Positions 44,072-61,795 of a stretch of 64,000 bases of DNA are shown here, piece by piece. The translations under genes and the position numbers were made by a program. Origin of the DNA: Thermoflexus hugenholtzii JAD2 (GTDB lineage Bacteria; Chloroflexota; Anaerolineae; J036; Brachytrichaceae); contig CAMDWA010000003.1 of NCBI GenBank assembly GCA_945877855.1, forward strand, positions 1 through 64,000, written 5' to 3'. The notes beneath the pieces were generated by a model. The model did not search any database. It was not told the DNA's origin and saw only the letters and a program-made list of their open reading frames with translations. Each line of letters opens with the position of its first letter. The first letter of the stretch is position 1.

Positions 44072-44081
44072 TACAGCTTTT

Positions 44082-45053
44082 ATGAACAATATTTTTGTTT
44101 GGATTGAACAAACCAATGGCGCAGCTGAGAGCATTGCATGGGAAGCGATGACGGCAGCGCGGGTGGTGGCAGATGGGTTGGGCGGCAACGTGGTTGCGCT
44201 GGTGTTGGGGGACGGGGTGGATGCCTTGGCGCAACAAGCCATTCAACGCGGGGCGAATAGCGCGATTGTGGCAAATGATGCTACGCTCAAGGCGTTTCGC
44301 TTAGAGGCTTATGCCGCAGTGGTGGCAAAAGCGGCGCAAGGCGCAGCCGCCGTGTTGATGGGCACAAGCCAACGCGGGCTTGAGTTATCGGCAGCAGTGG
44401 CGGCGCATTTGGGCGCCGGTTTGGCCGCCGATTGTGTGGATGTGGCGGTAGTGGGCGGTCAGATTGTGGCCTCGCGCCCGGGGTTGGTGGGCAATGTGAT
44501 GGCCAAAGTGACGATGAGCGGCCCTAGCGTCATCAGCATGCGCAAGCGCGTGTTGCCAGCCGCCGAGGTCGATGCGGCCCGCACTGGCGCGGCGGCACAG
44601 GTTGGCGCGGTGTTGGCCGAGGCCAATATTGCCAGCAAGGTTGTTGGCATCGAAGCCAAGGCCGTAACCGAAGTCAGCCTAAGCGATGCGCGAATTGTGG
44701 TATCGGGTGGGCGGGCCACCGCCGGTAGCCCGGGCTTTGCGCCGGTTAAGGCCTTGGCCGATGCGCTGGGTGGGGCGCTTGGGGCCAGCCGGGCTGCGGT
44801 TGATGCTGGCTGGATTCCGTATGCCCATCAGGTGGGGCAAACCGGCAAGACGGTGCAGCCCGATTTGTATATCGCGTGTGGCATTTCGGGCGCAATTCAA
44901 CACTTGGCGGGTATGAAGACCAGTAAGTTGATTGTTGCCATCAACAAAGACCCCGAAGCGCCGATTTTCAAATATGCGCATTATGGCTTGGTCGGCGATA
45001 TGAACCAAATTTTGCCCGCCCTGACCGCCGAAGTGAAGAAGCGTCTGTCGTAA
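44082..45053 (+). CDS. etfA: Electron transfer flavoprotein alpha subunit
   Basis: About 323 aa. [23 protein letters not shown] at the start, [28 protein letters not shown] in domain I, and the FAD-binding C-terminal domain: [50 protein letters not shown] and [21 protein letters not shown]. The open frame runs upstream to 44031, but that extension is encoded by the hairpin, so ATG 44082 is taken. It binds FAD and docks with the downstream membrane oxidoreductase. Confidence 0.94.
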
Positions 45054-45214
45054 AAGTGCTGAGTGGAAAGTGCTAAGTGAAAAGTGGAAAGTAGGGTTGC
45101 TTGCTTTCCACTTTTTTGTTTTGGCTGTAGAATATTTAGCACTTTTTACTTTACACTTTGCACTTTGCACTTTGCACTTTGCACTTTTTACTTTCTACTT
45201 CCTACTTCCTACTT
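45054..45214. repeat. Heptamer hairpin, ACTTTGC/AGTGCTG families
   Basis: Right arm 45141-45214 is ten consecutive 7-bp units (ACTTTTT, ACTTTAC, ACTTTGC four times, ACTTTTT, ACTTTCT, ACTTCCT twice). Left arm 45054-45096 is made of complementary AAGTGCT, GAGTGGA, AAGTGAA-type units. It fills the etfA-FeS junction and ends 5 bp before the next ATG. Confidence 0.9.
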
Positions 45215-45219
45215 AAATT

Positions 45220-47310
45220 ATGTTAACCCTCATCGAAAAAATCCTTTTTATTTTGTTAGTGGCGGCTTCATTTTATGCCGCGTCGCTGACATTTCGGCGT
45301 ATGTGGTCGGTGGTGCAACTGGGGCAGGGCGGCAAGCTCGATTTTAGCCAAGCGCCTGAGCGCTTGCGCAAGGGCATTATTGCGCTCTTTTCACAGGGGC
45401 AAATTTTGCGTAATAGCGCCACGCCCAAACGTAAGATCGCGTCGCTATTTCATTATGGCATCGCGTGGGGTTTTATTTTTTATTTGCTCGTCAATGCGGT
45501 TGATGTACTAGAGGGACTATTTCCCTTCACCACACACAGCATGGGGGTGGTGGGTGGTGTCTACCGCTTGCTTGCTGATGTGTTTAGCATGAGCGTGTTG
45601 GTTGGGGTGGTTTATTTCTTGCTGCGCCGGTTTGTGGCAAAAGCGCCAGAATTGCAGTTTAATGACAATGTGCTATTGCACCCAAAGGTCAAGGCTGGCG
45701 GCATCTCGCGTGATTCGCTTATTATCGGCATCTTCTTGTTGTTGCATATTGGTTTTCGGCTGTTGGGTGCGTCATTTGCGGTGGCCGAACATGCCGATGG
45801 TTGGCAACCCTTCGCCAGCCTCATTAGCAATGTGTGGCGTGGTATGTCGCCAGCGGCGCTGACGGTGGGCCAACATGTGGGTTGGTGGGTGGCGCTGGGG
45901 CTGATTTTGGTGTTCTTGCCCTATTTCCCCTATACCAAGCATTTGCATTTGGTGGCGGGGCCGTTTAACTTTGCTACGCGACCTGAGCGCAAAGCCTTGG
46001 GCGCACTTGAGGCGATTAACTTTGAGGATCAGTCGATTGAGAAATTTGGCGTGACCACGATGTTAGACATGCACCAAAAGCACATCGTTGACCCATTCGC
46101 CTGTATCATGTGCAATCGCTGCCAGCAGGTCTGCCCGGCATACACCACCGGCAAAGAGCTATCGCCCAGCGCCCTTGAGATTAACAAGCGCTATATGATT
46201 TGGGACGTGTTGCGGCCCAACAGTTGGCAAGATTTAACCAAGCCGGTAGTGATCGATGAAGCCTCGATTAACGAAGCCGCGCCGGATGTCAACCCGTTGT
46301 CGTTGCCATTGATGGGCAATGTGATTAGCGAGAGCGCATTGTGGGCCTGCACCAGTTGCGGGGCTTGTGTGGATGTATGCCCAGTCGGCAATGAGCCGAT
46401 GTTTGACATTTTGAATATGCGGCGGGCGCAAGTGCTGATGGAAAGCAAGTTCCCCGATCAACTCAAGGCCGCATTCACCGGCATGGAACGCAGCGGCAAC
46501 CCATGGCAGATGAGCGAAGACCGCTTGAATTGGGCGCAATCGCTTGACTTTAAAGTGCCGACGGTGGAAGAGAACCCCGATTACGAGGTGTTGTATTGGG
46601 TGGGCTGCGCAGGGGCCTTTGATCCAAATGCCCAAGCCACGGCCCGCGCCATTGCCACCGTGTTGCACAAGGCCAATGTCAATTTTGCGGTGTTGGGCAA
46701 TCAAGAGACTTGCACCGGTGACGTGGCGCGTCGCGCTGGCAATGAGTATTTGTTTTTCGAGATGGCGAAGGCTGTAATTGAAACTTTGAAAGGAGTTGAG
46801 GCCGACAAACGCACCATTGTGGCTGGTTGCCCACATTGTTTGCATACGATTGGTAAAGAATATCAAGAATTGGGCGCAACATTTAAGGTTTTGCATCACA
46901 CCCAACTCATCAATCAATTGGTTGGCGAGGGCAAACTCAAGATTGACGCCAAGAAGATGCTGGAAAGTGTCACTTTTCACGACCCGTGCTATCTTGGGCG
47001 GCACAATAACGAATATGACGCGCCGCGCAAAGTCTTGACAACCTTGGGTGGCGAACAGCTTGAGATGCCGCGCAGCCGCAATCAATCATTTTGTTGTGGC
47101 GCAGGTGGGGCGCAGGTGTGGAAGGAAGAAGAGCACGGCAAAGAAGCCGTGAATGTCAATCGCTTTGCCGAGGCCAAAGCCACTGGCGCTAAGACGCTCG
47201 CCATCGGCTGCCCGTTTTGCTCACGTATGCTCAATGATGCCAACGCCGCCGACGGCAAGCCGATGCAAGTCAAAGACGTGGCCGAATTGGTTATGGAAGC
47301 GCTTATTTAA
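45220..47310 (+). CDS. Membrane Fe-S oxidoreductase, ETF:quinone oxidoreductase (EMO) type
   Basis: The 696-aa protein has an N-terminal membrane part (residues 1-245; about five or six helices) resembling the heme-b subunit NarI. Two ferredoxin-type clusters follow: CIMCNRCQQVC (about 293) and CTSCGACVDVC (about 378). Two CCG domains come next: VGCAGAFDP with AGCPHCLH, then DPCYLGRHNN and SFCCGAGGAQVW. This heterodisulfide-reductase-like architecture next to etfBA is proposed as an ETF:menaquinone oxidoreductase, passing beta-oxidation electrons into the membrane quinone pool. It closes the acd-etfB-etfA operon. Confidence 0.9.
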   Translation: MLTLIEKILFILLVAASFYAASLTFRRMWSVVQLGQGGKLDFSQAPERLRKGIIALFSQGQILRNSATPKRKIASLFHYGIAWGFIFYLLVNAVDVLEGLFPFTTHSMGVVGGVYRLLADVFSMSVLVGVVYFLLRRFVAKAPELQFNDNVLLHPKVKAGGISRDSLIIGIFLLLHIGFRLLGASFAVAEHADGWQPFASLISNVWRGMSPAALTVGQHVGWWVALGLILVFLPYFPYTKHLHLVAGPFNFATRPERKALGALEAINFEDQSIEKFGVTTMLDMHQKHIVDPFACIMCNRCQQVCPAYTTGKELSPSALEINKRYMIWDVLRPNSWQDLTKPVVIDEASINEAAPDVNPLSLPLMGNVISESALWACTSCGACVDVCPVGNEPMFDILNMRRAQVLMESKFPDQLKAAFTGMERSGNPWQMSEDRLNWAQSLDFKVPTVEENPDYEVLYWVGCAGAFDPNAQATARAIATVLHKANVNFAVLGNQETCTGDVARRAGNEYLFFEMAKAVIETLKGVEADKRTIVAGCPHCLHTIGKEYQELGATFKVLHHTQLINQLVGEGKLKIDAKKMLESVTFHDPCYLGRHNNEYDAPRKVLTTLGGEQLEMPRSRNQSFCCGAGGAQVWKEEEHGKEAVNVNRFAEAKATGAKTLAIGCPFCSRMLNDANAADGKPMQVKDVAELVMEALI

Positions 47311-47313
47311 TGA

Positions 47314-47446
47314 TTAATGGTTAATGGTTAATGGTCAGTGATTGGTTTACGCATTACGCATTACCATTAACCATTAACCATTAACCATTAACCATTGACC
47401 ATTGACCATTAATCATTGACCATTGACCATTAATCATTAACCATTA
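47314..47446. repeat. Heptamer hairpin, ACCATTA family
   Basis: Left arm holds three TTAATGG units (47314-47334). The right side is twelve consecutive heptamers (47363-47446): ACCATTA with ACCATTG and ATCATTA/ATCATTG variants. It stands between the Fe-S oxidoreductase stop and the nucleoside hydrolase ATG 6 bp further on. The 3:12 unit imbalance suggests strong expansion of one arm. Confidence 0.92.
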
Positions 47447-47452
47447 TTTAAT

Positions 47453-48412
47453 ATGCGAAAATTTATTATTGACACCGATACCGCCTCAGATGATGCGGTG
47501 GCGATTGCGATGGCGCTGCGCTGGCCGGATGTTGAGGTATTGGCGATTACGGTGGTGGCGGGGAATGTGCCCCTTGAACAAGGCACGATTAATGCGCGTT
47601 ACACGGTTGAATTATGTGGCGCACATACACCGGTGTATGCCGGTTGCGCCAAGCCGATGCTGCGCGACTTGGTGACGGCGACGTGGTATCACGGCCCCGA
47701 CGGCATGGGCGATATGAATTACCCCGCGCCGACAACGCCGCTTGCGTCGGGCCATGCCGTTGATGTGCTGATCGATTTGATCAAGGCCAACGCGGGCGAT
47801 GTGACGCTGGTAACGCTTGGCCCGCTCACCAATATCGCGACGGCGCTGCTGCGTGCGCCCGAAATTGCGGGCATGGTATCGCGTTGTGTGATGATGGGCG
47901 GCGCGGCCTGTCATGTTGGCAATGTCACCCCCGCTGCCGAATACAACATTTGGGTTGACCCCGAAGCCGCCCGAATTGTTTTTCGCAGTGGTTTGCCGCT
48001 CGAGATGGCGGGCTGGGAGACGGCCTTGGGTGAGGCGAACCTCAGCCGTGCCGATATTGACGCAGTGTATGGGCTGGGCACGCCGTTAGCAACGTTTGCC
48101 ATTGACTGCAATATTCATGCGCTACGCTCAAGCACCGAGTGGTTGGGTGACCCGGGCCTTATTCTCAACGACCCGGTGGCGGTGGCCATTGCGCTCGACC
48201 CGTCGATTGTGACGCGCCAAGGGCGCTATCGGGTGGATGTTGAGACACAGGGCGAATTGACCCGCGGTATGACGGTGGTTGATCAGCGTAGTGTGGTCGG
48301 CTCGCAGGTCGGCTTTACCGAGGCATGGGCGGTGCGTCAGCCGAATGTGTTGGTGCATCATGCGGTTGATGCGGTGGGGTGGAAGCGGGTGTTGATGGTG
48401 TGTTTAGCATGA
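47453..48412 (+). CDS. Nucleoside hydrolase (IUNH family)
   Basis: The 319-aa protein has the N-terminal Ca2+-binding DTDTASDDA (residue 6). TLGPLTNIATAL (about 121), VMMGGAACHVGNVTPAAEYNIWVDPEAA (about 145) and the C-terminal LNDPVAVAIALDP (about 238) complete the metal/ribose site. It cleaves N-ribosidic bonds of nucleosides, giving base and ribose for salvage. The ribosome-binding position is occupied by the heptamer array. It is convergent with the helicase gene 22 bp away and is not obviously part of the etf operon's role. Confidence 0.92.
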   Translation: MRKFIIDTDTASDDAVAIAMALRWPDVEVLAITVVAGNVPLEQGTINARYTVELCGAHTPVYAGCAKPMLRDLVTATWYHGPDGMGDMNYPAPTTPLASGHAVDVLIDLIKANAGDVTLVTLGPLTNIATALLRAPEIAGMVSRCVMMGGAACHVGNVTPAAEYNIWVDPEAARIVFRSGLPLEMAGWETALGEANLSRADIDAVYGLGTPLATFAIDCNIHALRSSTEWLGDPGLILNDPVAVAIALDPSIVTRQGRYRVDVETQGELTRGMTVVDQRSVVGSQVGFTEAWAVRQPNVLVHHAVDAVGWKRVLMVCLA

Positions 48413-48434
48413 GATAGATAATAATTCCATGCTT

Positions 48435-51116
48435 TTATTTACTCTTAGCCGGCCAAAATGCTGCTACCAATTCGATGCTCGGCACATGCAATCCGAAATC
48501 CAACTCGTGAATAGAATTTTCCAGGTGAATAAAGGCCCGCTCTCTTGCCAATCGTATTTGCTCCATACGTCCGGGTGAGACTGTTGCCTCACGAGAAATT
48601 CCCTTTCCATCCATGATTCGGTTGAGCGTCTTCAAAACCTGCCAATCCTTCAAGATATTACAGGCTGAATTGTCTAGCGCAGCTTCAACCCCAACTACCA
48701 TACTACGCCGGGTATTGGCCGAATGGGTGATGCGATCGAATACCCGAAATATCAGCAGCGGATGCATAAGCACAGTTTGTGGTAGCGTAGCAACGGCAGC
48801 TTGCAGACTGTGCGCATCGGTGATGGCTTTCTCGAAGATCTTTTGCCCCATGCCCAGCAGGTGCAAAATGGCCTGTCGACCCTCATCCTGCCGGTCAAAG
48901 CTCATCATTTCATAGTTATTGCTAATCCCAAATTCACGTCGCCAATCATCTGGTGTAAGGAAACTTATCTTGTCCGATGCCTCTGTTTTGACCCGCCGCC
49001 CGCGCAGCGCTAACATAGATACAAAAAACGGTCTTAAATCGACAAGATCAACGCGCGGGATTAGCGCCGAGGCCGTGCCATAGTCAAATTTGTCAGCTCG
49101 CCCGACTATATCCTTCACCGCTTGTAGCACATCCTGTCCACCAAGCTGCGCAGTCTTTTGATTAAACCACTCATCTAATCGCTCACGGGGTTGATTCTTG
49201 GCCTCAAAAAATAATTGATCAAATACTTCTGACGATTCAATTCCAAGGACAAGTTGCATTAGATCTTCTGGATCATCCATCACCGCATTGAGTGCAACTT
49301 TTATTTGCTCAATTTTGTGTTCTAACTTAATCCAAATCTGTGCTTCAACGGTCTCCAGATTGCGCAATGACAAAACATCAACTGGGTGTTTCTGCCCGAT
49401 TCGATTCAACCGTCCGACGCGCTGATGTAGACGCATTGGGTTCCAAGGCACATCAACATGAATTAAGGTGTGGCAATTGTCTTGCAAGTCGATTCCCTCG
49501 CCACCCGCCTCGGTCGAAACGAGAAATCGAGCCTGGCCAGACAGAAATTGACTGCGGGCCGAAGTGCGCGGCAACCTCAATGTGATGCGCTGCCCGTCTG
49601 GTATCGGCACATCCGCCAATGCATCATCCCCGTTAATAAACACGACCGCCTGCTCCCCAAATTCCTTCATTAACAGAACAAGCAGCGCTCGTTGCGTTGC
49701 CTTATATTCGGTAAAAAACAGCACGGATCGATTGGCATAGTTACCTTTTAGCAACTGAATAATTTTTTTCAGTTTTGTCTCAACTGTGACCTGATTCGCC
49801 AAATCAAGTAATTCTTGCAGGCGGTCCTGTTCATTAGCCATCAATCCGACTGAACCCGACATCTCCACTAGGCTAGCTTGCAAGGCCGCTACCTCGTCAT
49901 CGTTACCCATTTGCGTGGCTTGTTCTTGGGTCTGGATGAGCTGCTGAATATCCTTGAGTTTCGTGGATTTGCGACGCAGACCGTCCAACCGATTTTGCAA
50001 GGCCTGCTTAATTGCCGCGAGTGAACTCGAGGCAATTTTCTGCATCGCAATCAAAATTAACAAGATCAATCGGCTATCTTGATAGCCACGCGCACCCGCA
50101 TACATTTGACCAGATGAAATAAACCCAGATAGCCGGTTATAAAACTCTGCCTCTTGTGGCGAGTAAATATAGTTAACAACGGTAACTTGGTGCGACTGAA
50201 AGAGTGGCTTGCCGGCCAGATCAGTGACATTCTGTTTGTTATTGCGTATCATCACCTCGGGAAGCTTCGAGAGTTGGTAACGCAACTCGGTCTTCGGGTT
50301 AAAGTCCGGATTCAATAATTTCAATAGTGATAAAAAGCCATAATTCTTACCTCGATGAGGCGTGCCGCTAAAAAACACCATAGAGTTAATACGCTGATGC
50401 TCTAACATTTCTTCGATCAATTTATAGCCGAGGGTCGCTCCCGTTTGTTCAGCGCTATTCAAATGATGGGCCTCATCAATAAACACCATATCCCAGGGCT
50501 GGCTTTCAAGCAATCGCCTGCGTCTGTCTGGGTTATCGTTTCGCAAGGTCTGTAACGATGCGACAACTCGGTCGTGAGTCTTCCAAAAATCTAATTGGGC
50601 TGTATCCGACTGACTGACATAGGGCACGACCCGGATTTCGAACATTTCGGCCAAACGTTGTGCCCATTGCGTGACCAAAGACGCTGGGCACAAGATCAAC
50701 ACTCGCTGAATCAATTTGCGACTGAGCAATGACGAGAGGATTAACCCCCCCTCGATCGTTTTACCGAGTCCAACATCATCGGCGATCAGTTTTCGGGTCG
50801 GCAACGACTGAACTACTTTATGACACACCCACAATTGATGCGGCAATAATTTGATCCGTGAAATCGCAAACACACCCCAGGCATCATTGGTTGACTGTAT
50901 GACTTCGGCCTGCACGCGCAAAATGACCTCCAGCGGTGCATCCCACATTACAGATGACAGGCGTTCATCTAGGCTTTGCTTGGCCTCAAGCTCATTAGCA
51001 AAGCACTCCTCAATACCATGTAAGAAGCGCACCACAACCGTGGTGTCATTGTCAACAATGACACGACCCTCGCCAAATTTTGAATGGATGACGAAATCGT
51101 CACGCTTGTATTTCAT
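48435..51116 (-). CDS. SNF2/RapA-type helicase, partner of the sacsin-like protein
   Basis: The 893-aa protein starts with a small Tudor/KOW-like barrel (DDFVIHSKFGEGRVI) and then a superfamily-2 engine: Q-motif region LPHQLWV, Walker A DDVGLGKTIEGG (about residue 112), Walker B FIDEAHHLN (about 222), SGTPHRGKNYG, then STEAGGEGIDLQ (about 545) and QRVGRLNRIGQKHPVD (motif VI). The layout resembles RapA/DrmD-type SNF2 translocases of phage-defence loci. It follows the 2521-aa gene by 69 bp on the same strand. It should use ATP to move on nucleic acid; the target is unknown. Confidence 0.86.
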   Translation of the reverse strand: MKYKRDDFVIHSKFGEGRVIVDNDTTVVVRFLHGIEECFANELEAKQSLDERLSSVMWDAPLEVILRVQAEVIQSTNDAWGVFAISRIKLLPHQLWVCHKVVQSLPTRKLIADDVGLGKTIEGGLILSSLLSRKLIQRVLILCPASLVTQWAQRLAEMFEIRVVPYVSQSDTAQLDFWKTHDRVVASLQTLRNDNPDRRRRLLESQPWDMVFIDEAHHLNSAEQTGATLGYKLIEEMLEHQRINSMVFFSGTPHRGKNYGFLSLLKLLNPDFNPKTELRYQLSKLPEVMIRNNKQNVTDLAGKPLFQSHQVTVVNYIYSPQEAEFYNRLSGFISSGQMYAGARGYQDSRLILLILIAMQKIASSSLAAIKQALQNRLDGLRRKSTKLKDIQQLIQTQEQATQMGNDDEVAALQASLVEMSGSVGLMANEQDRLQELLDLANQVTVETKLKKIIQLLKGNYANRSVLFFTEYKATQRALLVLLMKEFGEQAVVFINGDDALADVPIPDGQRITLRLPRTSARSQFLSGQARFLVSTEAGGEGIDLQDNCHTLIHVDVPWNPMRLHQRVGRLNRIGQKHPVDVLSLRNLETVEAQIWIKLEHKIEQIKVALNAVMDDPEDLMQLVLGIESSEVFDQLFFEAKNQPRERLDEWFNQKTAQLGGQDVLQAVKDIVGRADKFDYGTASALIPRVDLVDLRPFFVSMLALRGRRVKTEASDKISFLTPDDWRREFGISNNYEMMSFDRQDEGRQAILHLLGMGQKIFEKAITDAHSLQAAVATLPQTVLMHPLLIFRVFDRITHSANTRRSMVVGVEAALDNSACNILKDWQVLKTLNRIMDGKGISREATVSPGRMEQIRLARERAFIHLENSIHELDFGLHVPSIELVAAFWPAKSK

Positions 51117-51185
51117 AGTTGATTATGTTTATGAGCTACGCTAATCGCAAAATTAGTATTCGGGCTGAGCAGTAAAGTCAATGAC

Positions 51186-54100
51186 TCAAAGCTTATTGTC
51201 CAACCTCAGATTGATCGGGATATCAAAACAGTAATCAAATGTCGCATGAGTTGCGCCTAAATGTTGTTTTGCTTTCTCATACATCTCTATTGATGTCGAG
51301 CAGCCGAACCATTCACGCACACGTTTGGCAGGCACAAAACAGTGTTTATGCGCAAAAGGCGTAGTAACAACACCTAGTCGCATAAGTTCGCGCATGACAT
51401 AGTGCGCGCCGACTGTCATGCCGACAAGATCAGGCGCTCGATATCCAGTGCCACCAAATATTGAACTTGTCCTTGACCTTATTAAATCATCAAGATAAAA
51501 CGTACGGTTCAATTTTTCAACACTTAGAAATATCTCGCGGTAGTCTTTCAGGTGACGACGGATCTGATAGATAGTCACAAATAACCGCATATGACTTGCA
51601 TAGCTTGGCTCATTGCTAAAACTTTCTAGTTTGCTATCAATAAAGTTGTCAAGCACTTTCATCCAGTCGTCACTCTTCGGATCTTTGCTTCCCACAACGT
51701 CCATAAGCTCGATTTTTTGACAAACCTCTAAGAATTCACGTGTTCGGCCAGGTTTGAACCAACCTAACCCATATGTGAGACCGGCAATAAACAAGGTCAT
51801 CCAGCCAAGATTGGCGTCATAAGGGTTCTTTTGCAATTCGACCAGACCATGTTGGGCCCAACTGGGATAAAAAAGACTATTGACATACCCATCTTCGGCT
51901 GAATTTTTATAAAGAACCCATTTGCGAGATAGGTCTTTGATTTCTTGTCCAAAATCGTGCGGTGGCGCAATTGGTAGCGGCTCTTTGGTGGAATCCGGGG
52001 CATCCGATTCGAGTTTGAGGCGACCAAGCACAATGTTCTTTTTATGCGAATCAAGCTGCTGAAACGATCCATCTTGCTTAACATTTGCCAACCATGAACC
52101 TTCATAATTCGCATGTTCCAGCAGTTTCTCGGTTAAGGATTTTGCCAGCGCACCATCTACAAGGTAAGTCAACACAGCACGGCGCATGTCTGGGCTAATG
52201 TCTTCCAGCGCCCAATCAGCCAAGCGCGCGGAGCCTGCATCAAGCTTTTCACGACAAACCCTAAATACCTCGATTGAGCCTTTTTGGCAATAGTCTGAAT
52301 GTAATTGAAATTTGAGCGGTGCAAAGGCCGCTCTCAAAGTTTCATCATCTGAATTATCTTGATCTAATGTATTAGCGACGACTAAACTACTGGCTACTCG
52401 CCAATGTCTATCGGCACATAAAAATCGCAATTCTGACAAAAATCCTTTCAATTCTTTCGACTCATCATCATCTGCTTTGTTAATATATTTATCTACTAAA
52501 ATATCCTTCAGCTGAAGCGTCAGCTCTGGCTCCATATTGTGGTTGTTTGGAATTAGCCTTTCCAAGACTTGTTTTAGTGTTAATGGTCGCCACATCAGAT
52601 TGGATTGCTCAATGCTCGGCCACTTATCATAAATACGTTTGGCGACAACCGAACCAGAGAGTAATGTATCGTTAGCTACATCGAGCTTAATAACCAAGGC
52701 AAGCAAGTCGGGAATTTTTTCAAGCAGACCATCGAGGTAATACTTAATCGACCCAAGCCCTGTCAAAATGGGGTGTGGTGATGGTAAACCCGTTGGTACG
52801 CAAGCATGCCTGTTCACGAGCGATCGAATAGCGCCGTTATCACCAAACAAGAATTCGTTGATGACACGTTGAGCAGGTGAATTGTCATCCTTTTTGGCGC
52901 GTTCGACAACAACGTCCCACAATGATTCCCAAAAGGCATCGTGTGTGAGGCCCGGCGAGAGAAATAAGCTGTCGCAAAATGCCGACCAATTTTGCTGAGA
53001 CATGACAAACAATTGGCTGAGATCCTCAGCTAATTGTCGTCCTGCCTTGCCAGCGAGGGCCATATTTTTAGCCTCAACCCGTGATAGTTGTGCCCGGCCA
53101 GGGTCTAAATCAAAGGGCGCATTGACGAGTATTCCGGCATTTAATTTCTCTTGGGTTGGTGCAGTTACCCATAAGGTGGGTATTTCATCTGCGCTGGCCA
53201 TGAAGCCGTTGGCCCCCATCACCATACAAGTCGTTGCGCTATTCGTTCGGCAGACCAGAATTTGTTGTGTGGCAGCATCCGTCAATGTGCTAAGTGAGCC
53301 GGTTTCCCAATGTGCTAGGTTTGGCAGCAACAGATTTGGGCGCCAAAGCACAGTTGTTGCCTGTCTGCTGCTATCGCGCAATTCAATCGATCGGATCTGG
53401 CGGGCAAAGAGCGCCAAGTAGGGCGCTAAGCGCGTGAATGATTGCACAGCTTCCTGATATCGTGTATGACTATCCGGCAACAAAGGCAATTCAATCAGAG
53501 TAGCCCGTTGGTTTGGTTCTGTGCTCAGATTACGAATTTGAGTTTTCATCCGATCCCTGTTTGAATCGTCCAACCGTTTAGGATAAAAGCCAGAAATTAT
53601 CTCGAATCCTAATCGTCCGCTGAGAATGCGCGGACGCTCTGACAGTAGAAAGACGCTCTTGAATCCCAAACCAAACTTGCCAGTCTGATGATTTCCAACT
53701 TCGTCACCACCTTTGTCCGAGTTATGTAAGGTCAGCATATTCTCTAGATCGGCACCCCAGCCTTTGCCCAAACCATTGATTTCGCCAACTTGGGTCTGGT
53801 TAATCAGGCGACCCCAATGACAAATAGCCAGTGTGTTATTGGTCGATATAACCACAAACCGTCCGATCTGCTCCTTATTGATCAAGGTCGATGCCGCCAA
53901 ATTTATGGCTGCGTCGTCTGCATTTTGAAATAACTCAAACAACACGCTTTTGGCGCTATATTGATATCGGTTCTCAACCCTTTCGCGCACAGCTTTTACA
54001 GATTGCCTATGACCTTGGCCAGCTACATCACTGATATACTTTTCTATTTCACTAAGGCAGAATTCATAATCTATAGCTACGGGTCTAATGGACGATTTTT

Positions 54101-57100
54101 GCAAGAAGTGATATTCATTGTTAACTTCCGTATATAAAAGTTTGTTCCAATCTTTTAGAAGCGCCTCGAATGGTGATGTCTTCTGAAGTCCAAGTTGCTC
54201 CAAGTAATATGGCGATTTTTTAAGCAACAGTCGTTGTGCCACCTCAAGATCAAGTTGATCTCCAGTCACTATTTTATCTGCCCATATTTTATCAAAGTTA
54301 AGCGGAATATTAAAAATATTTTTTAGCCAGTATCGAGCTGTTTCTTTTATAAGCCCGCTTAATTCTGCACGCGAATAATCCCCTAAATTGATAGAAGCTA
54401 ATTGAATCGGAATATGAATCTGACCACTTACCGATGTATTCGCCCGATTCATCATGGGAAAGCTCTTACCAACCAATAAATTATCAAACCTAGAAGTTAA
54501 GCGGGCGTCAATACTCAATCCAGTGATAGATTTGACGTTTATCGCTTGCGAAAGACTCTCGACCACCGAGACTTTGATAATTGTAATATTAGACAATTGT
54601 TTTAAGAATCTCGTCCCGTCTGCGGCATTTACTGAAAAGTCAAAAAGTTGACGAAAATGATAAAGGGAACGTCTTCCAAGATAAGATTGTGCTAGCTCTG
54701 GTATGTTACCGTGATCGCCTAATAATGCAAGAAACCCACCGATTTCGGTTTCATCAATTATGGTTGCCCACGGTTCAAAAAAAGCGCGTAGCTGCTTGGT
54801 TACTTCATATGGTTTAAGATCAAGAGTTGTGCTCTTTCCATCATGATTTGGATCTGGATGGATAGGCAATGAAGTTGATGTGACGATTAGCGAAATATCA
54901 TGAAAACCACATACCTGCGCAATCCCTTCATCAACTATAAAATCTTTGTCGACCCCTAAGAAGCCATAACACAAGCGATTAGCTGGCTTACTTTTTCCGT
55001 TTTCGTTAAGCAAATTCAAATATGGCAGAATATTTTGGTAAAAATTGCCCTGATTCGACACAGATTGCTCCAAATAAGCATTCAGAATGTCGCGTTTCGG
55101 CGCTTGCTTCTTACCAGCCGTCAAACCACTGATTGCATTAACAAGGTGATTAATTACCTTTATCTGTTTTTCGTTTACCAATGGCTTTGACAACTCTTTC
55201 GCCATCTCAGCGTAGTCTGCTTCCCCCATTTTGTTGTAAACGTCATTGAGCACAAGCCCACCCGGCAAAATACTGTTGTGCGATCCAAAGATTTGCAGCC
55301 ATTCAGCAACGCTATCCATCTCGATTGTCGGCCCAACAAAGTTGGCTTCATCGCTCGCGGCAACCAAAGCCAATAAGGTCACGCCGTCAGTTTTAGCGGC
55401 AAAACACTCCAGTTCTAAAAGTTGCTTAAAGCCTTTATGCTGCTTTACTGTCTCTAGCAACGCAGATGAATCGTAATAGCCGAGATCCTGTTTAGCCGAG
55501 CGGATAAGTTGTCTAGGCAAATCCCCCAAGATTGGAAGGTAGATAATATTTTCGGGTGAAACCCAATGATTTCCAGTAATCGGCAACCAAGCTGTTTCTC
55601 GGATTCTTGTAAGTACTTCACGAGTAAGCGAGTTGGGTTGCAATTGGTAATGCGCCAGTGTATCCAGCAAGTGCTGCCAGCGCTTGTCTTTTGATAATTT
55701 ATCCGAATGTAATAGGTGGTCGATTAACACTGAGGCCGTGAATCCCTGAATCCCAAATCGTGTATATTTTTGATGCAGATCAGCGTCACCATCATCATCA
55801 ATTAGGTATATCTCATCTGCAAGATCATCTGGCAGAGAAACTTCAGTCGCTAGATATGAATACTTAGTAAGGCAGATGTAACCACCAACTTTTGTTTTAT
55901 GTAATCGCAAAGCCCGAAAGACACGTTCCTTAAGAATTAAGCGTAATAATCGTTTACGGTCGGGATCAGTCAACCCACGCAAATCAATCTGCTGAAGATC
56001 AGCCTCACCCACCAGTTCAAGTTCTTCAAACAGTGTATCAAACTTAAGCGTTTCAATACCAAGTCGTGCATATAATTTTTCAGCTACGTTTGCGGCCAAT
56101 TCAGCTGACAATACCAAGAAATTGGCGGGCAGAAAGCGGCGGCTCGACTCTAACACCGTCGATTCCAAGCTGCCCTGTTCTATGCGGTATAGCGAGACAT
56201 TGGTGTCACGAGCGAGTTTTGATCCTTGCAAACAATAGCGAATGACACGCCGCCGTTTATCTGTTATAGCACTTCCAACACTGAGTAATAGATCATTTAA
56301 TAGCGCAGTGCGATCTGAGCGCAAATCACCAACATGCTTCAAAAGTGAATCGACGATACTATCAATTTCTAGGTTTTGAATTGGTTCACTCTGCAGTGGC
56401 AAAGAGCGAACTTTATCTTGAACGAGGATAACTTCACCACCCACAGCTGCCACGAGATTCTTAGCATAATCACTGCCTGATACTCCCCTCGCAAAAAGAC
56501 GACCTTCGGCGTTACAGGTGTTAAGCTGATCTAGTGACAAATAGCTGGATTTTGCATCTCCGGCCCCGTCAAAAACTTTGACCTGAAAAAGAGCAAATCC
56601 TGCAATCTGCCGTAAAACTTGAGGATCATTTCGCTCAGCATCAAGGATGATTTCTGCCGCCAGCCGGCTACGCTCCCACAGCCAGTCGCTATTTTTGGGC
56701 GCGGCAAGCCTAGCAAGACATGACACCAAACCCACCAACTGATTGAAACTCAGCTTACGGTCGCCGTCATCGTCAGCCGGCCATAGTTCCGCTGGCGTGC
56801 ACAGCCACGCTGTCTCCTCAGCCAACGACTTAATCAAATCCTCATAGGCATCAGTCACTGGCTGCGACACACTCAGGCGCACCCGCTGAGACAAGTCTAC
56901 AAATCGCACGATCTCGCTTACAACTTTCTTGTTTGTCGTAAGATTTCTGTAGCGCACGCTACCAAATGCATGCTGCAGCAACCTAAATATATGTTTAGAT
57001 TTACTTTCGGATTTTATGGTCTGCAGAAAGTCCCGTAAGTAAGTGAGATGATTTTGGTTCGTAAAGGTTTTCTCGACCTCGATACTCTCTAAAACCTGCC

Positions 57101-58751
57101 CCAATAAATGGTCGGGCCATAACCGGCGTGTATTTTGGCTATTCAGCAAGTGCACGTCGCCAGTAACAATGAGACACGTGATGTCTTTATCTTTTAAGCC
57201 CGGCATAACGTCAAATGGCCGCGACGGGTCTGACTCGGGTGGCGCAGCGATCAAGTAGACAGGATTCGAGGCTTTTATTTTTTGGTAAGATTTACTACCG
57301 TCATGTGTCAACTGACATATCCATTGCCACTCTGAACAAATTACTCCTAAGTTCGGTTTCAACCATACCGACTCAGCTATTGCCTGCGTGATTTCTACGA
57401 TTTCTTGATGCTTGGTGCCAGGTTGGCTAGCAAATTCAGCCAAAGTTGGAATCAGCAATGGGAAGGTGATGTGCTTGGCAACAAGCCTGTTCCAATTTTC
57501 CTGAATGGTTTGGGGTTCTCCAGCTTCTGTATTTTTTAGACCAAGTATATGCTGCCTGCCAGAATCCACGAACCAATAGCCATGTGTTGTGACATTGGCA
57601 TAAAGGCTAATGCTAGGCTTGATGTTTTCAGCAATACCTATTGGTAAAAATACAGCTGGCGTAATTTTTACAAACGGTTTCTGATTCACTAACCGATCAA
57701 AGACGCCAATGATGATCGAGCCGTGTGGAGATGCTTTTTCTTTCTCATCCAACACGTCGCCGTTCTTATCAACTCCGTTCTGACGAGGCCATTCAGGTTG
57801 CTCCTTAATTGCTTGAAATAGCTGATCTGTATTCCATTTGGCGGTGCCAAAATAACGATATTTTGTATCACTTGCAACCCCCGCTCCTAACTTGTTCCTC
57901 CCAAATTTTAGGGTCACTTCTCCAGCAAATTGAAGCAGTTGTTCCTTCGTCATTCTTTCCTCGTCAAATGGCATATGTCCACTCGCCGTTACAGCCGAAC
58001 ATGTCAACTCCAAGCTAGGCTGACTGGGTGGTTTGGTATCTAGAGAAAAGAAGCTTATTTGTCTCAGATAACGCAACATGGGAAACAAAGGTGCTAGGCT
58101 CTCGGCCAAGGTAATGATGTCAGGCTGATCTGATGTAACTTTAAAAATATCAAAGAGTGAGATAGCTGAATCCCCTGGAGTGTAATCCTTGGACAAACAT
58201 GGTTCATCGCCCTTTTGCCGTAGCGGGATAATAGTAATAAGACCAGTTTCTAAATTTGCCTGATAGTCCATCAACAATTCGATTACTAATTTAGTGTCAT
58301 TTTCAAACCCGACATTCCATTCTTTATGATGCTCGTCAAATTCTTTGCCTTGATCGTTTGCTGTTGAGTAGGGATTGATGCTAAATAATTGCGAATTATG
58401 TTCAGGCGCAAGGCAAAAGAAACAATCGCATAGATGGAAAAGACTTTTGATACCCAAGCCAAATCGCCCAACAGTACTTTTTTGCGTCACTTTTGCACTG
58501 GCACCGATCTGGTTTATGGCTTCGCGATCATCTGCCGAAAACATACCGTTGTTGATTACAATCAGGATTGGATGTCGAAGTAGAGGATGCTCGGCATCGC
58601 TGATCCCGGATGTAAGAATGATCTTCATCTCGCTTGCTTCGGCATCATCAGCGTTCTGAATAAGTTCTTTGAGGATTGGAAATCCGCGATGATAATTTTC
58701 CTTCAGTAGTGTTTTTAGGTGATTGAGGCGTGCGCCGATACTATCTTTCAT
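51186..58751 (-). CDS. Giant protein with two sacsin/Hsp90-type ATPase domains
   Basis: The 2521-aa protein has two GHKL ATPase modules of the sacsin/NOV type. The first is at residues about 1-200: GFPILKELIQNADDAEA (N-box), VINNGMF, GRFGLGIKSLFHL. The second is at about 1590-1750: SVLFELFQNADDAA and GKFGLGFKSVFLL. The 1350 residues between and the last 750 are largely helical and unrecognised; I see no nuclease motif. Such proteins act as chaperone-like or sensor ATPases in eukaryotes; bacterial ones cluster in defence islands with helicases. It is first in a two-gene unit, and its codon use is more AT-rich than flanking genes, suggesting transfer. Confidence 0.87.
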   Translation of the reverse strand: MKDSIGARLNHLKTLLKENYHRGFPILKELIQNADDAEASEMKIILTSGISDAEHPLLRHPILIVINNGMFSADDREAINQIGASAKVTQKSTVGRFGLGIKSLFHLCDCFFCLAPEHNSQLFSINPYSTANDQGKEFDEHHKEWNVGFENDTKLVIELLMDYQANLETGLITIIPLRQKGDEPCLSKDYTPGDSAISLFDIFKVTSDQPDIITLAESLAPLFPMLRYLRQISFFSLDTKPPSQPSLELTCSAVTASGHMPFDEERMTKEQLLQFAGEVTLKFGRNKLGAGVASDTKYRYFGTAKWNTDQLFQAIKEQPEWPRQNGVDKNGDVLDEKEKASPHGSIIIGVFDRLVNQKPFVKITPAVFLPIGIAENIKPSISLYANVTTHGYWFVDSGRQHILGLKNTEAGEPQTIQENWNRLVAKHITFPLLIPTLAEFASQPGTKHQEIVEITQAIAESVWLKPNLGVICSEWQWICQLTHDGSKSYQKIKASNPVYLIAAPPESDPSRPFDVMPGLKDKDITCLIVTGDVHLLNSQNTRRLWPDHLLGQVLESIEVEKTFTNQNHLTYLRDFLQTIKSESKSKHIFRLLQHAFGSVRYRNLTTNKKVVSEIVRFVDLSQRVRLSVSQPVTDAYEDLIKSLAEETAWLCTPAELWPADDDGDRKLSFNQLVGLVSCLARLAAPKNSDWLWERSRLAAEIILDAERNDPQVLRQIAGFALFQVKVFDGAGDAKSSYLSLDQLNTCNAEGRLFARGVSGSDYAKNLVAAVGGEVILVQDKVRSLPLQSEPIQNLEIDSIVDSLLKHVGDLRSDRTALLNDLLLSVGSAITDKRRRVIRYCLQGSKLARDTNVSLYRIEQGSLESTVLESSRRFLPANFLVLSAELAANVAEKLYARLGIETLKFDTLFEELELVGEADLQQIDLRGLTDPDRKRLLRLILKERVFRALRLHKTKVGGYICLTKYSYLATEVSLPDDLADEIYLIDDDGDADLHQKYTRFGIQGFTASVLIDHLLHSDKLSKDKRWQHLLDTLAHYQLQPNSLTREVLTRIRETAWLPITGNHWVSPENIIYLPILGDLPRQLIRSAKQDLGYYDSSALLETVKQHKGFKQLLELECFAAKTDGVTLLALVAASDEANFVGPTIEMDSVAEWLQIFGSHNSILPGGLVLNDVYNKMGEADYAEMAKELSKPLVNEKQIKVINHLVNAISGLTAGKKQAPKRDILNAYLEQSVSNQGNFYQNILPYLNLLNENGKSKPANRLCYGFLGVDKDFIVDEGIAQVCGFHDISLIVTSTSLPIHPDPNHDGKSTTLDLKPYEVTKQLRAFFEPWATIIDETEIGGFLALLGDHGNIPELAQSYLGRRSLYHFRQLFDFSVNAADGTRFLKQLSNITIIKVSVVESLSQAINVKSITGLSIDARLTSRFDNLLVGKSFPMMNRANTSVSGQIHIPIQLASINLGDYSRAELSGLIKETARYWLKNIFNIPLNFDKIWADKIVTGDQLDLEVAQRLLLKKSPYYLEQLGLQKTSPFEALLKDWNKLLYTEVNNEYHFLQKSSIRPVAIDYEFCLSEIEKYISDVAGQGHRQSVKAVRERVENRYQYSAKSVLFELFQNADDAAINLAASTLINKEQIGRFVVISTNNTLAICHWGRLINQTQVGEINGLGKGWGADLENMLTLHNSDKGGDEVGNHQTGKFGLGFKSVFLLSERPRILSGRLGFEIISGFYPKRLDDSNRDRMKTQIRNLSTEPNQRATLIELPLLPDSHTRYQEAVQSFTRLAPYLALFARQIRSIELRDSSRQATTVLWRPNLLLPNLAHWETGSLSTLTDAATQQILVCRTNSATTCMVMGANGFMASADEIPTLWVTAPTQEKLNAGILVNAPFDLDPGRAQLSRVEAKNMALAGKAGRQLAEDLSQLFVMSQQNWSAFCDSLFLSPGLTHDAFWESLWDVVVERAKKDDNSPAQRVINEFLFGDNGAIRSLVNRHACVPTGLPSPHPILTGLGSIKYYLDGLLEKIPDLLALVIKLDVANDTLLSGSVVAKRIYDKWPSIEQSNLMWRPLTLKQVLERLIPNNHNMEPELTLQLKDILVDKYINKADDDESKELKGFLSELRFLCADRHWRVASSLVVANTLDQDNSDDETLRAAFAPLKFQLHSDYCQKGSIEVFRVCREKLDAGSARLADWALEDISPDMRRAVLTYLVDGALAKSLTEKLLEHANYEGSWLANVKQDGSFQQLDSHKKNIVLGRLKLESDAPDSTKEPLPIAPPHDFGQEIKDLSRKWVLYKNSAEDGYVNSLFYPSWAQHGLVELQKNPYDANLGWMTLFIAGLTYGLGWFKPGRTREFLEVCQKIELMDVVGSKDPKSDDWMKVLDNFIDSKLESFSNEPSYASHMRLFVTIYQIRRHLKDYREIFLSVEKLNRTFYLDDLIRSRTSSIFGGTGYRAPDLVGMTVGAHYVMRELMRLGVVTTPFAHKHCFVPAKRVREWFGCSTSIEMYEKAKQHLGATHATFDYCFDIPINLRLDNKL

Positions 58752-58802
58752 AAATTTCTGGTGATTATTTTTGCTTGATATTTAGTTTATAGTTTGTATT
58801 TT

Positions 58803-58985
58803 ATGTTACTGCCTCTGCACTACAGTGCAGTATTGTTGCGTCTGGCCTATCTTCAAAAAGACTTAGGCGATCTTACACAGGCTCGGCATTTGGCGCTTGA
58901 AGCTGCGCATGTGTTTGATACTTTGCCTCCCGCTGAGATGCAAGAAATAACTGATTTTCTGGTGCAGTTGCCAGTTGGCAATTGA
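58803..58985 (+). pseudogene. Short TPR-like fragment
   Basis: A 60-aa frame from ATG 58803 contains one TPR-like helix pair (LAYLQKDLGDLTQARHLALEAA). It looks like the end of a TPR protein whose front part is missing. It sits in the short divergent gap behind the giant ATPase gene. It could also be a real small protein; there is no Shine-Dalgarno. Confidence 0.35.
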
Positions 58986-59045
58986 GGTGATATGTTATTT
59001 CATCGAAATAACATTTACTGAGCGCGGTATCAAACTGAGGTTTTC

Positions 59046-59102
59046 GCCGATTTCACTATATCCCCACCAAGCGTAGCTTGGTGGGGATATAGTGAAATCG
59101 GC
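59046..59102. repeat. Perfect hairpin, CCGATTTCA class
   Basis: Perfect 27-bp arms (59046-59072, 59076-59102) with a 3-nt GTA loop; edge GCCGATTTCACTATA. Outer short complements GGTGATAT (58986-58993) and ATATCACC (59131-59138), the latter reaching the neighbouring stop codon. Confidence 0.92.
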
Positions 59103-59137
59103 ATTTCCTCAATTTCTGTCCGTGTGCGGTATATCAC

Positions 59138-60928
59138 CTAATCACCCACCGTCACCGGCAAAATGCGATCAAAACCCAGCGCCAGCACAATAAAACTGCG
59201 CAGGCGCTGGTCGGGGCCGATGATGGCCCGCAGGTGCGGGGCATAGCGATTGATTTGCGCATAGGCTTGAGCGAGGGCGGTTAGCACGGCAGGCAGAGCC
59301 ATGATTTGCTCGCGGCTGAGGCTGTGGGCGGTTGCGCCATCGATCTTGGCATCGGTCAGCGACACATATTTAAATTCAATCAGCAGATCGAGCATACCGC
59401 GTGGCCGTGATTCGGGGCGCACTGTCATCACCACGTCGGCATAGCCGCGCCCGACCTCTAATTCTGAGCGCAGCAGATAATTGAGATCGTCATACAAATA
59501 AGCCATGAAAATAATTTTGACGGTTTGCTCGCTAAATTGCAAATAATCGCGGTTGCTGAAGGTCTTGAAGAAATACTGCTCGACAAATTCACATAAAAAT
59601 TGGGGTTCGCCACGCCAGCGCCAGCGTCGGGCACCCTCGGTTACTTTTTGAATGTGTTGGGCATCGGGCAAGGTGAAGCGCCGAATTTGCTGAAAGTAGA
59701 GGCCGCGTGTAACCAGATTGGGTATTTCAAGCCGCAAGCCTTGTTCGGGCAAATAGCCATTGAGGGTGAGAATGCCGAGGTAATAGAGTAACGATCGGTA
59801 GGTGATGTCATCGGCTCGCATGTCCATCATGTCACGTAGATGAAAACTGTGGATGATGTTTGGCACGCCTACCGCACCGCCATGCGGGGCAAGATCAAAT
59901 AAGAATTGTTCACCACCGGCACGGCGTGCCATATATTCGAGTTTGGCTTGGTCGAGCGATAGGTTGACATCGAGCATCTCACTGGGATATTTGCAAGTTC
60001 GGCGCACATGATCGAGGAAATATAAGGCTAACGTTGGGTTATACAAACGGGTGTTTGCATCTTCGTTAAACATATAACCGTTGTAAAAACGGCGCATGGT
60101 GTCGAGCGCGTCGTCGTATTGTGCCGCACTCAGGCCACATTGATCGGTGACTTGTCGCAAAATCGTTGCAATTTCAGTTTCGGTAAAGCCGCATAAATCG
60201 TGATATTCAACGCGATGGGTAATATCTTGGGCAATATTAAACCCCGATGTGATGTCGGCCAACAACATGGGCGACACGCCGGTGATAAAGACGCGGTCTA
60301 GTGTGCCTGTGCCGACCATGCCTTTGATAATTTTGAACAAGGATTTTAGCAAGCCATCGGTTTGGGTTAAGGCGTTAAAGCGGTCAATTGCCTCACTCGT
60401 ATCGCTAAAGGCCAACTCGTTTGCAAAATTATCGTATTCGTCAATCAGCAAATATAACTTGCCATTGATATTTTGCACGGCTTCAACCAGTGATTGGAAG
60501 GAGGCCAGCGCATCGTTTTCATCAATCTTAATTTCATCTTGGAGCCATTGGCGGTAATGTGAGCGAAAGCCCCCAATTCTGATATTGATGTGGTTGAACA
60601 ACGATTGCTTAATTTGGGTCAAGTCGCCATAGGCTGCCACATTTGAGAAATCCCAACGCAAAACGAAATACTGATTGTGCAAGGGGGTGGGGTTACGCCC
60701 GATGTCGAGATCGCCAAACAGCCGATCAAACGCTTTGGCTTGGGCAAGGTCGTAATAGCTGGCGAGGGTGCTAAGCCACAGGCTTTTGCCAAAACGGCGC
60801 GGACGCAAAAACACGGGGTAATACACGGTGTCTTCTAACACCCGAATAAATGCGGTGCGGTCTTGATACCACAGATTTTGATTGCGCAATTTCGGGAAGT
60901 CAGCGGTGCCGTAACCAAAGCGAAGCAT
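59138..60928 (-). CDS. AAA-ATPase with C-terminal PD-(D/E)XK nuclease-like domain (PF09820/PF08011 type)
   Basis: About 596 aa. The N-terminus FPKLRNQNLWYQDRTAFI leads into Walker A FLRPRRFGKSLWLSTL (about residue 45), and the DEY of KLYLLIDEYDNFANEL (about 157) is Walker B. FITGVSPMLLADITSGFN and YNGYMF are family marks. The C-terminal GRGYADVVMT (Asp) and MLDLLIEFKYV (E-x-K) give a PD-(D/E)XK nuclease-like core. Members are abundant, often multi-copy and of unknown function; mobility or defence roles are suspected. The frame runs to 61033, but ATG 60928 gives the family N-terminus. Confidence 0.87.
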   Translation of the reverse strand: MLRFGYGTADFPKLRNQNLWYQDRTAFIRVLEDTVYYPVFLRPRRFGKSLWLSTLASYYDLAQAKAFDRLFGDLDIGRNPTPLHNQYFVLRWDFSNVAAYGDLTQIKQSLFNHINIRIGGFRSHYRQWLQDEIKIDENDALASFQSLVEAVQNINGKLYLLIDEYDNFANELAFSDTSEAIDRFNALTQTDGLLKSLFKIIKGMVGTGTLDRVFITGVSPMLLADITSGFNIAQDITHRVEYHDLCGFTETEIATILRQVTDQCGLSAAQYDDALDTMRRFYNGYMFNEDANTRLYNPTLALYFLDHVRRTCKYPSEMLDVNLSLDQAKLEYMARRAGGEQFLFDLAPHGGAVGVPNIIHSFHLRDMMDMRADDITYRSLLYYLGILTLNGYLPEQGLRLEIPNLVTRGLYFQQIRRFTLPDAQHIQKVTEGARRWRWRGEPQFLCEFVEQYFFKTFSNRDYLQFSEQTVKIIFMAYLYDDLNYLLRSELEVGRGYADVVMTVRPESRPRGMLDLLIEFKYVSLTDAKIDGATAHSLSREQIMALPAVLTALAQAYAQINRYAPHLRAIIGPDQRLRSFIVLALGFDRILPVTVGD

Positions 60929-61060
60929 ATGATGATTATAAAGAGGATTTACGATTGCAAGAATGGATTTAATTGCAAATCCAAAACCTAAACCCCAAAA
61001 TTCCCCGTATAATCCCCACCTCAAACTCCCCACCGCTGTTTTCGGTGCAAGGAAAATAAC

Positions 61061-61795
61061 ATGACCTATAAATATAAATACCTCGACCTCATCCTCGGGT
61101 TGTTCGTGGCTGTCTTGCTCATTAGCAATATTGCCTCGGCAGCCAAAATTGTTGACCTCGGCATGTTTGCTGGTCGCCCCATGATCTTCGACGCTGGCAC
61201 GCTCATCTTCCCACTCAGTTATATTTTTAGCGATGTGTTGACCGAAGTGTATGGCTACGCGGTGTCGCGCCGTGTCATTTGGATCGGCTTTATCAGCCTG
61301 TTTCTGATGAGCGCGGTGCTGATTTTAGTAGGCGTGATGCCGGGTGAAGCCGGTTGGTTATCGACCAATGCCATGGGCGACAACGCCGCCGCCACCTTCG
61401 GGCAAGATGCTTTTGATAAGGTGCTGGGCTTAACATGGCGCATCGTATTAGGTAGCTTGATTGCCTATTGGTGTGGTTCGTTTATCAATGACTATGTGCT
61501 TGCCAAGCTCAAAGTGCGCACCGAGGGCCAATTGTTATGGTTGCGCACCATTGGCTCGACCCTGATCGGCGAAGGGATCGACACCCTTGTGTTTGCGTTG
61601 GTGGCGTTTTGGGGTGTGTTGCCCAACGAAATTTTGATAGACTTGATCATTGCCAACTATATTTTCAAGGTTGGGGTCGAAATTATATTTACGCCGTTGA
61701 CCTATTGGGTGGTCAATCGTCTGAAACGGGTTGAGCATCAAGACCATTTTGACCGCAACACTGATTTCAACCCATTTAAATTAGGCGCATCGTAG
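61061..61795 (+). CDS. yhhQ: Queuosine-precursor transporter, YhhQ/VUT family
   Basis: The 244-aa protein has six hydrophobic helices. The family signatures are LLISNIASAAKIVDLG (helix 1), FPLSYIFSDVLTEVYGYAVSRRVIWIGF (about residue 50) and TIGSTLIGEGIDTLVFALVAFWG (about 165). It imports preQ0/preQ1 for tRNA queuosine synthesis. TATAAT at 61008-61013 and AAGGA nine bases before the ATG support expression. A small CACCG/CGGTG hairpin precedes the Shine-Dalgarno, but it does not match the preQ1 riboswitch consensus. The stop abuts the convergent YHYH gene with no gap. Confidence 0.92.
   Translation: MTYKYKYLDLILGLFVAVLLISNIASAAKIVDLGMFAGRPMIFDAGTLIFPLSYIFSDVLTEVYGYAVSRRVIWIGFISLFLMSAVLILVGVMPGEAGWLSTNAMGDNAAATFGQDAFDKVLGLTWRIVLGSLIAYWCGSFINDYVLAKLKVRTEGQLLWLRTIGSTLIGEGIDTLVFALVAFWGVLPNEILIDLIIANYIFKVGVEIIFTPLTYWVVNRLKRVEHQDHFDRNTDFNPFKLGAS

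Follow-up and report, generated by a model that had tools for sequence, protein, structure and literature searches.

The combination of a GHKL ATPase with a superfamily 2 (SF2) helicase is of a kind already known from conflict systems. GHKL ATPases of the MORC type occur with SWI2/SNF2 helicases in predicted restriction-modification (R-M) operons, and some MORC and paraMORC families carry C-terminal nuclease or TIR domains (Iyer et al. 2008, PMC2292703). In the type I-D Shedu protein VcSduA, whose anti-phage action was established by experiment, a GHKL ATPase is proposed to gate a C-terminal PD-(D/E)XK nuclease (PMC12137116), and DarTG ADP-ribosylates phage DNA according to work cited in PMC9503650. 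Here we describe a gene pair from a 64,000 bp stretch of Thermoflexus hugenholtzii JAD2 DNA (contig CAMDWA010000003.1; the whole stretch is referred to as the window): a giant protein with two sacsin-like GHKL ATPase modules, and the SNF2 helicase that accompanies it.

The pair moves as a unit, is found among genes of anti-virus defence and, in one group of relatives, has a DNA-modifying toxin or a domain predicted to cut DNA in place of the motor; on these grounds it is probably an undescribed immune system. The open-licence literature yielded no description of the family, the near-obligate pairing, the helicase-linked tail or the exchange of output domains; one may exist elsewhere.

A double-sacsin ATPase and a RapA-like helicase

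Both genes lie on the minus strand, the ATPase first and the helicase after a spacer of 69 bp (Table 1). This arrangement, with two GHKL sites in a 2521-aa protein followed by an 893-aa helicase, had been proposed in a reading made from the letters of the window (the sequence-only reading), and is borne out by the open reading frames, Pfam and NCBIfam matches and conserved motifs. The pair is also, as that reading had it, more AT-rich than its flanks: GC content at third codon positions is 0.42 for the ATPase and 0.52 for the helicase, whereas most flanking genes lie at 0.63-0.67 and the immediately upstream gene at 0.56.

The ATPase matches Pfam SACS (1.4e-32, in two stretches) and NCBIfam P_loop_sacsin (2.1e-33), both above cut-off; HATPase_c_3 also matches in the first site, the SACS model being far stronger. 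Site 1 (KELIQNADDA and GRFGLGIKS, residues ~28-103) and site 2 (FELFQNADDA and GKFGLGFKS, residues 1605-1699) each possess the Bergerat-fold motifs, that is, the catalytic Glu/Asn and the glycine lid, and the second module matches the first domain in a profile comparison (probability 97.9). Across 75-78 homologs, E29, N33, D36, G95, G98, G100 and K102 of site 1 and E1606, N1610, D1613, G1691, G1694, G1696 and K1698 of site 2 are invariant or nearly so, while an arginine downstream of each site (R399 and R1886) is found in 78 of 78. Such conservation means that the two sites are not a product of chance; both would bind and hydrolyse ATP. Where an acidic DxG residue is usual, site 2 has a histidine in 75 of 78 homologs, a feature of the whole family.

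Sacsin, the human ataxia protein, is likewise a giant protein with tandem Hsp90-like ATPase modules and a candidate arginine downstream of each; human sacsin, however, has three modules together with ubiquitin-like, J and HEPN domains, whereas the ATPase of the pair has two modules and a different tail. Comparable arginines in sacsin, R474 among them, have been proposed to complete the ATPase (PMC9880540), and R399 may be the equivalent of R474. Residues ~480-1570 of the ATPase gave no family match in Pfam and profile searches.

Motifs I (DVGLGKT), II (DEAH) and VI (QRxGRxxRxGQ) of the helicase are intact, and 66 homologs show little or no variation in them. An AlphaFold2 (AF2) model of the helicase (pLDDT 84.4; alignments for structure prediction were made without rows from plasmid records) aligns with E. 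coli RapA entries over 691-699 residues, the C-terminal part included (Z 23-24); other SNF2 proteins align over ~400-450 residues. By its full-length architecture and intact SNF2 motifs, the helicase is RapA-like. No nuclease was found in it by fold comparison of the model or by family searches.

The C-terminal 392 residues of the ATPase (2130-2521) are modeled entirely as helices (pLDDT 90.2). Comparison to PDB sequences, PDB folds and viral folds gave no convincing match, and parts of the model are barely covered among the matches listed; this is an absence of match, not proof of a new fold. A confident all-helical model without a PDB match nevertheless argues against a DarT or PD-(D/E)XK fold here. 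Fold comparison detected no HEPN-like helical domain, but leaves room for one. That no nuclease motif is seen in the pair, as the sequence-only reading remarked, is supported for the helicase and for these 392 residues, but this does not extend to residues ~480-1570.

The pair is a near-obligate unit

A profile built from the ATPase alone was used to scan GTDB species genomes; 188 relatives were obtained, of which the best 80 were used, with open reading frames at homologous loci called by a simple method. Although the search employed only the ATPase, it still recovered adjacent helicases. Taking all collections together, the helicase adjoins the ATPase in 67 loci, on the same strand in 66 of these, and the gap is 150 bp or less in 63 of 66 (median -4 bp). 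The two proteins have co-evolved: their trees agree (Mantel r 0.78, compared to a maximum of 0.17 in 1000 shuffles; n=61). No third gene family is present in more than 9 of the 67 loci, and hence nothing besides the pair is obligatory; nor is there a constant nuclease or methylase beside it. A pair that consistently split apart across genomes would, by the sequence-only reading's own criterion, have refuted that reading. It does not split: almost all related loci with sufficient room have the helicase next to the ATPase, the exception being a subclade in which another DNA-acting domain takes its place.

The output arm of the ATPase is exchangeable

That exception comprises 11 ATPase relatives with downstream room but no helicase, and all 11 have a different C-terminus. 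In place of the last ~290 residues, seven loci have a DarT DNA-ADP-ribosyltransferase and four a NOV_C/PD-(D/E)XK-like domain. A profile of the all-helical tail (from P0001) matches 67 of 67 pair loci and none of the 11 helicase-less loci; it also detects the pair on truncated contigs and in a divergent form (L067/L084) whose helicase is 32% identical. Identity to the nearest helicase-type cyanobacterial protein falls at residues ~2235-2240, marking the breakpoint. In a tree of the core only, the DarT and NOV_C versions are nested among helicase-bearing lineages, with at least four changes of type (shuffled mean 10.7) and supports of 0.97-1.0 at key nodes, which shows that the core stays while the output changes. 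Given the replacement of tail and helicase at these 11 loci, the sacsin core is most likely a sensor or gate with exchangeable DNA-acting effectors. The C-terminal domain was not found without a sacsin core in samples of 400 genomes of the phylum and 369 of the class, beyond the known loci.

All seven DarT loci are cyanobacterial (Pfam DarT, 83-98 bits) and in each a macro-domain gene overlaps or abuts DarT (recognized by Pfam in two and by matching N-terminal sequence in the rest); a DarT version would need a safeguard, and the macro gene would serve as one. At these loci (L061, L068, L069, L073, L074, L080 and L089) the giant double-sacsin protein is split into two overlapping genes. Protein and macro gene together are a candidate gated DarTG system in their own right, differing from DarTG in that DarT is fused to a giant ATPase, which would gate it. 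At the other four loci (L063, L070, L083 and L086) double-sacsin proteins without helicase end in NOV_C, a Pfam family that we take, in view also of its motif, to belong to the PD-(D/E)XK nucleases. The match is above cut-off in two loci and weak in two (L063 and L070), where GENVE...GGDFE...VEVK (GxD..ExK) is readable. These proteins are candidate ATP-gated nucleases.

It might be argued that the linker, residues ~480-1570, conceals a catalytic domain which is the real effector, and that the helicase merely licenses it. Some 1100 residues without a family match provide space for such a domain; however, the linker is less conserved than the second GHKL module or the C-terminal parts, and the DarT and NOV_C versions, which already have an effector, retain it. 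We regard this explanation as highly improbable.

The pair is mobile

In a congeneric genome, window positions 44055-47330 and 59156-61782 are contiguous at ~83-87% identity, joined across ~100 bp. The intervening 11.8 kb, which holds a nucleoside hydrolase gene, the helicase and the ATPase, is accordingly an insertion (or was lost in the congener). Directly upstream of the insertion is a gene (59138-61033, minus strand) for an AAA-ATPase_like and PDDEXK_9 protein; the same gene is present at the empty site, and it therefore lies outside the insert. The left border bears heptamer tandem repeats (TTAATGG / CATTAAC; 47307-47446), and congener loci have similar repeats. A long inverted repeat with almost perfect arms (gccgatttcactatatccccaccaagc paired with its reverse complement) lies near the right border (59043-59105). 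In the interval from the ATPase start to this border, a short open stretch (58794-58985, plus strand) resembles the end of a TPR-type protein and is perhaps a gene remnant.

By the titles of their records, loci of the pair come from Chloroflexota, Actinomycetota, alpha-, beta- and gammaproteobacteria, Desulfobacteraceae, Planctomycetota, Cyanobacteria, Bacillota, Gemmatimonadetes, Bacteroidales, Neomarinimicrobiota and others. The distribution is sporadic: 1 of 400 genomes sampled from the phylum and 1 of 369 from the class, the latter being the seed genome. No helicase of this clade occurs in 27 further genomes of the family that were searched, and only 1 of the 400 phylum genomes has one; a single-sequence search of 201 genomes of the phylum returned only the genome of origin. 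A close-relative scan of genome contigs with the helicase alone as query found nothing; it was the ATPase profile that succeeded. Seven plasmid records contain relatives of the ATPase: those from Trichormus and Deinococcus are full-length, whereas the Sphingomonas, Synechocystis and Haematobacter copies are split or truncated. In Trichormus, Sphingomonas and each of the two Deinococcus plasmids, one of which (pDrdI) has two copies, the ATPase genes adjoin a helicase with 42-48% identity. The pair is thus a mobile two-gene unit that travels between distant bacteria.

The second copy on pDrdI (L008:17174-19801) is followed by a NucS-domain gene, and an in-frame stop in its helicase frame indicates that it may be decaying. 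On the Haematobacter plasmid (L006:5517-16276) a 1405-aa sacsin-family protein with a weak NOV_C match stands beside a 2103-aa double-sacsin protein without helicase. Phage records contained no match to the ATPase; viral contigs contained one full pair (L090/L093), adjoining an integrase and phage genes, in surroundings whose sequences read like a type I R-M/defence island.

A mobile context, DNA-acting outputs and a helicase of the dsDNA-translocase type would also be expected of a defence module directed against plasmids or other mobile DNA instead of phages, the translocase acting on the invading replicon. However, several copies of the pair are themselves carried on large plasmids, and general action against plasmids would therefore require self-exemption; we think this target quite unlikely.

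Surroundings of the pair and relation to known systems

For the pairs, the two nearest genes on either side were compared to PADLOC (2023) at a threshold of 1e-10. Neighbors matched 429 (108 proteins) and 340 (102 proteins) PADLOC families, compared to 24 in a control of 103 proteins from arbitrary fixed positions in a subset of these genomes; the figures are families, not genes, and are inflated by redundant R-M models, such that the contrast matters and not its size. Among the named neighbors are type IIG enzymes, methylases and specificity subunits of type I systems, and DrmB, DruE-like, BrxHI-like and PDC-S68 proteins. Homologous pairs are thus found in defence islands and not in housekeeping contexts, the second condition under which the sequence-only reading would have been refuted; it withstood both.

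At two loci (L013:1098-26987 and L072:2512-26734) the pair is part of a tight run of large genes, with proteins of 2133-2145 aa downstream (DruE-like in L013) and of ~1660-1690 aa upstream; a family with a type IIG R-M-like enzyme is common to the two loci, and the runs are perhaps a larger composite system. Within the window, a protein kinase fused to an FGE-sulfatase domain (39414-40964, plus strand) matches PD-T4-6 kinase models at 242 bits, probably as a generic kinase.

The sequence-only reading had named DrmD, the helicase of DISARM class 1, as an example of the SNF2 helicases of phage-defence islands. At the level of the family the resemblance is real: the helicase belongs to the same RapA-like SNF2 group as DrmD, BrxHI, DpdE and HmaA, and matches PADLOC PDLC02634 over its full length (916 bits). 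By the comparisons made, the pair itself is not DISARM. Against NCBIfam DISARM_DrmD (NF038317) the helicase scores 280.4 bits, below the cut-off of 610, and its near-obligate partner is a sacsin ATPase; the window locus lacks the set of drmA, drmB, drmC and methyltransferase, and the helicase itself excepted, no Drm component was found among the ten flanking proteins or others scanned in the window.

The best PADLOC match of the ATPase is TmtA, which we take to be Tiamat, a large defence protein with a GHKL ATPase. The best matches are limited to GHKL segments (e.g., residues 16-109 of 2521 against 36-131 of 1655) of models of 1063-1782 positions; full-length homology to TmtA is lacking, and by this comparison the pair is not Tiamat. 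MORC proteins have a single GHKL and S5 module, often with separate nucleases or methylases, whereas the ATPase of the pair has a ~2240-residue double-sacsin core and a helicase-linked tail made up of helices, with a RapA-like helicase as its one constant partner. VcSduA is a single protein with a DUF4263 nuclease, and has neither a double sacsin core nor a helicase.

Given these affinities, the pair could be an incomplete accessory of larger DISARM-, Druantia- or R-M-type systems, with the helicase as DrmD-like subunit and the sacsin protein as adaptor. PADLOC files the helicase family under DrmD, the pair at L013 and L072 stands in tight runs with large neighbors (one of those at L013 being a DruE-like helicase), nine of the 67 loci have a IIG R-M-like family in common, and in Trichormus (L002) drmC and a DUF1998 gene are nearby. 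However, nine is as many loci as any third family attains, the insertion in the window carries only the pair and a nucleoside hydrolase, and the one constant part is the pair itself. An accessory role is accordingly unlikely.

The same surroundings bear on a non-immune explanation, namely that a sacsin-like chaperone and a RapA-like recycler of stalled RNA polymerase form a stress chaperone-remodeller carried on mobile islands. RapA is the closest solved fold over the full length of the helicase, and eukaryotic sacsin has been described as a chaperone (PMC3710099). The sporadic distribution and the defence neighbors speak against it, and it is difficult to see why the helicase and tail of a recycler would give way to DarT or a PDDEXK-like domain; we consider this explanation very unlikely.

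Table 1. Features of the gene pair and its insertion (window coordinates).
Feature	Position	Strand	Remarks
Insertion (~11.8 kb) carrying the pair	47331..59155		In the congener (G788, locus L132) window 47330 is joined to 59156 across ~100 bp; flank identity ~85-87%
Giant double-sacsin GHKL ATPase gene	51186..58751	-	2521 aa; homologs in best 80 of 188 genome relatives and 7 plasmid records
First sacsin/GHKL ATPase domain	58209..58721	-	Residues ~11-181; E29, N33, D36, GRFGLGIKS lid; Pfam SACS, sacsin structures by sequence, conservation
HGYWFVDSGR motif with invariant R399	57537..57584	-	Residues 390-405; candidate Hsp90/sacsin middle-domain arginine
Unrecognized linker	54042..57314	-	Residues ~480-1570; no family match
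Second sacsin/GHKL module	53082..54005	-	Residues ~1583-1890; E1606, N1610, D1613, GKFGLGFKS lid, invariant R1886
Helicase-linked all-helical C-terminal domain (exchangeable part)	51189..52046	-	Residues ~2236-2521
RapA/DrmD-like SNF2 translocase gene	48435..51116	-	893 aa; AF2 model and RapA fold match
SNF2 motor core	49284..50861	-	Residues ~86-611; Pfam SNF2-rel_dom and Helicase_C; invariant motifs
Helicase C-terminal alpha/beta part	48438..49049	-	Residues ~690-893; aligns with RapA C-terminal part; no nuclease match

Discussion

We favor, with reasonable though not strong confidence, the view that the pair is a self-contained, horizontally mobile immune module in which a sacsin ATPase acts as sensor or gate and carries an output arm, here a helical coupler and a RapA-like translocase. 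The defence role proposed by the sequence-only reading is upheld as regards the pair as a unit and its defence-rich surroundings; phage defence, sensing by the ATPase and the killing step are what we infer from these.

The double-sacsin protein would be an ATP-driven sensor and gate: upon an infection-linked trigger, binding and hydrolysis at both GHKL sites would change its shape, and the last ~290 residues would serve as output arm. In the version found in the window, the helical arm may couple physically to the RapA-like SNF2 dsDNA translocase, recruiting or licensing it, and the translocase would then act on invading DNA, of phages or other mobile elements, or on polymerases working on that DNA. 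The final step could be a stall of phage DNA or transcription, or recruitment of a host nuclease; our leading guess for the motor is that polymerases are displaced, with phage replication or transcription stalled. Related versions would couple the same core to DarT, with the macro-domain protein shielding the host, or to the NOV_C/PD-(D/E)XK-like domain. A broader proposal is that a single double-sacsin core, ~2240 residues long, has been joined in evolution to different DNA-acting outputs (DarT with macro antitoxin, a PD-(D/E)XK-like domain, or a RapA-like translocase together with a helical coupler), and that the nuclease-free SNF2 motor is itself an effector; this we advance tentatively, and with somewhat more doubt than belief.

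Several observations weigh against this interpretation. The exchange for NOV_C or DarT is confined to one branch (cyanobacteria and two gammaproteobacterial loci), and the logic of core and effector is therefore an extrapolation for the remaining lineages. The sampling of homologs is mildly biased toward helicase-type sequences because the query profile was built from these, and the PADLOC contrast carries the inflation noted above. Neighbors inside the window are metabolic, the only hints of defence being the insertion itself and the kinase-like gene ~8 kb away. No effector chemistry is recognized in the helicase version, and residues ~480-1570 could hide an enzyme.

If the interpretation is correct, a widespread, unnamed defence family would be added to the GHKL-plus-helicase kind, and full-length 'DrmD' matches outside DISARM would be explained. 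The family would constitute a natural experiment in which one sensor core is joined to three different outputs, and the notion of a nuclease-free translocase as immune effector would become testable. It would also connect bacterial immunity with the architecture of human sacsin, a protein whose mechanism is a matter of debate.
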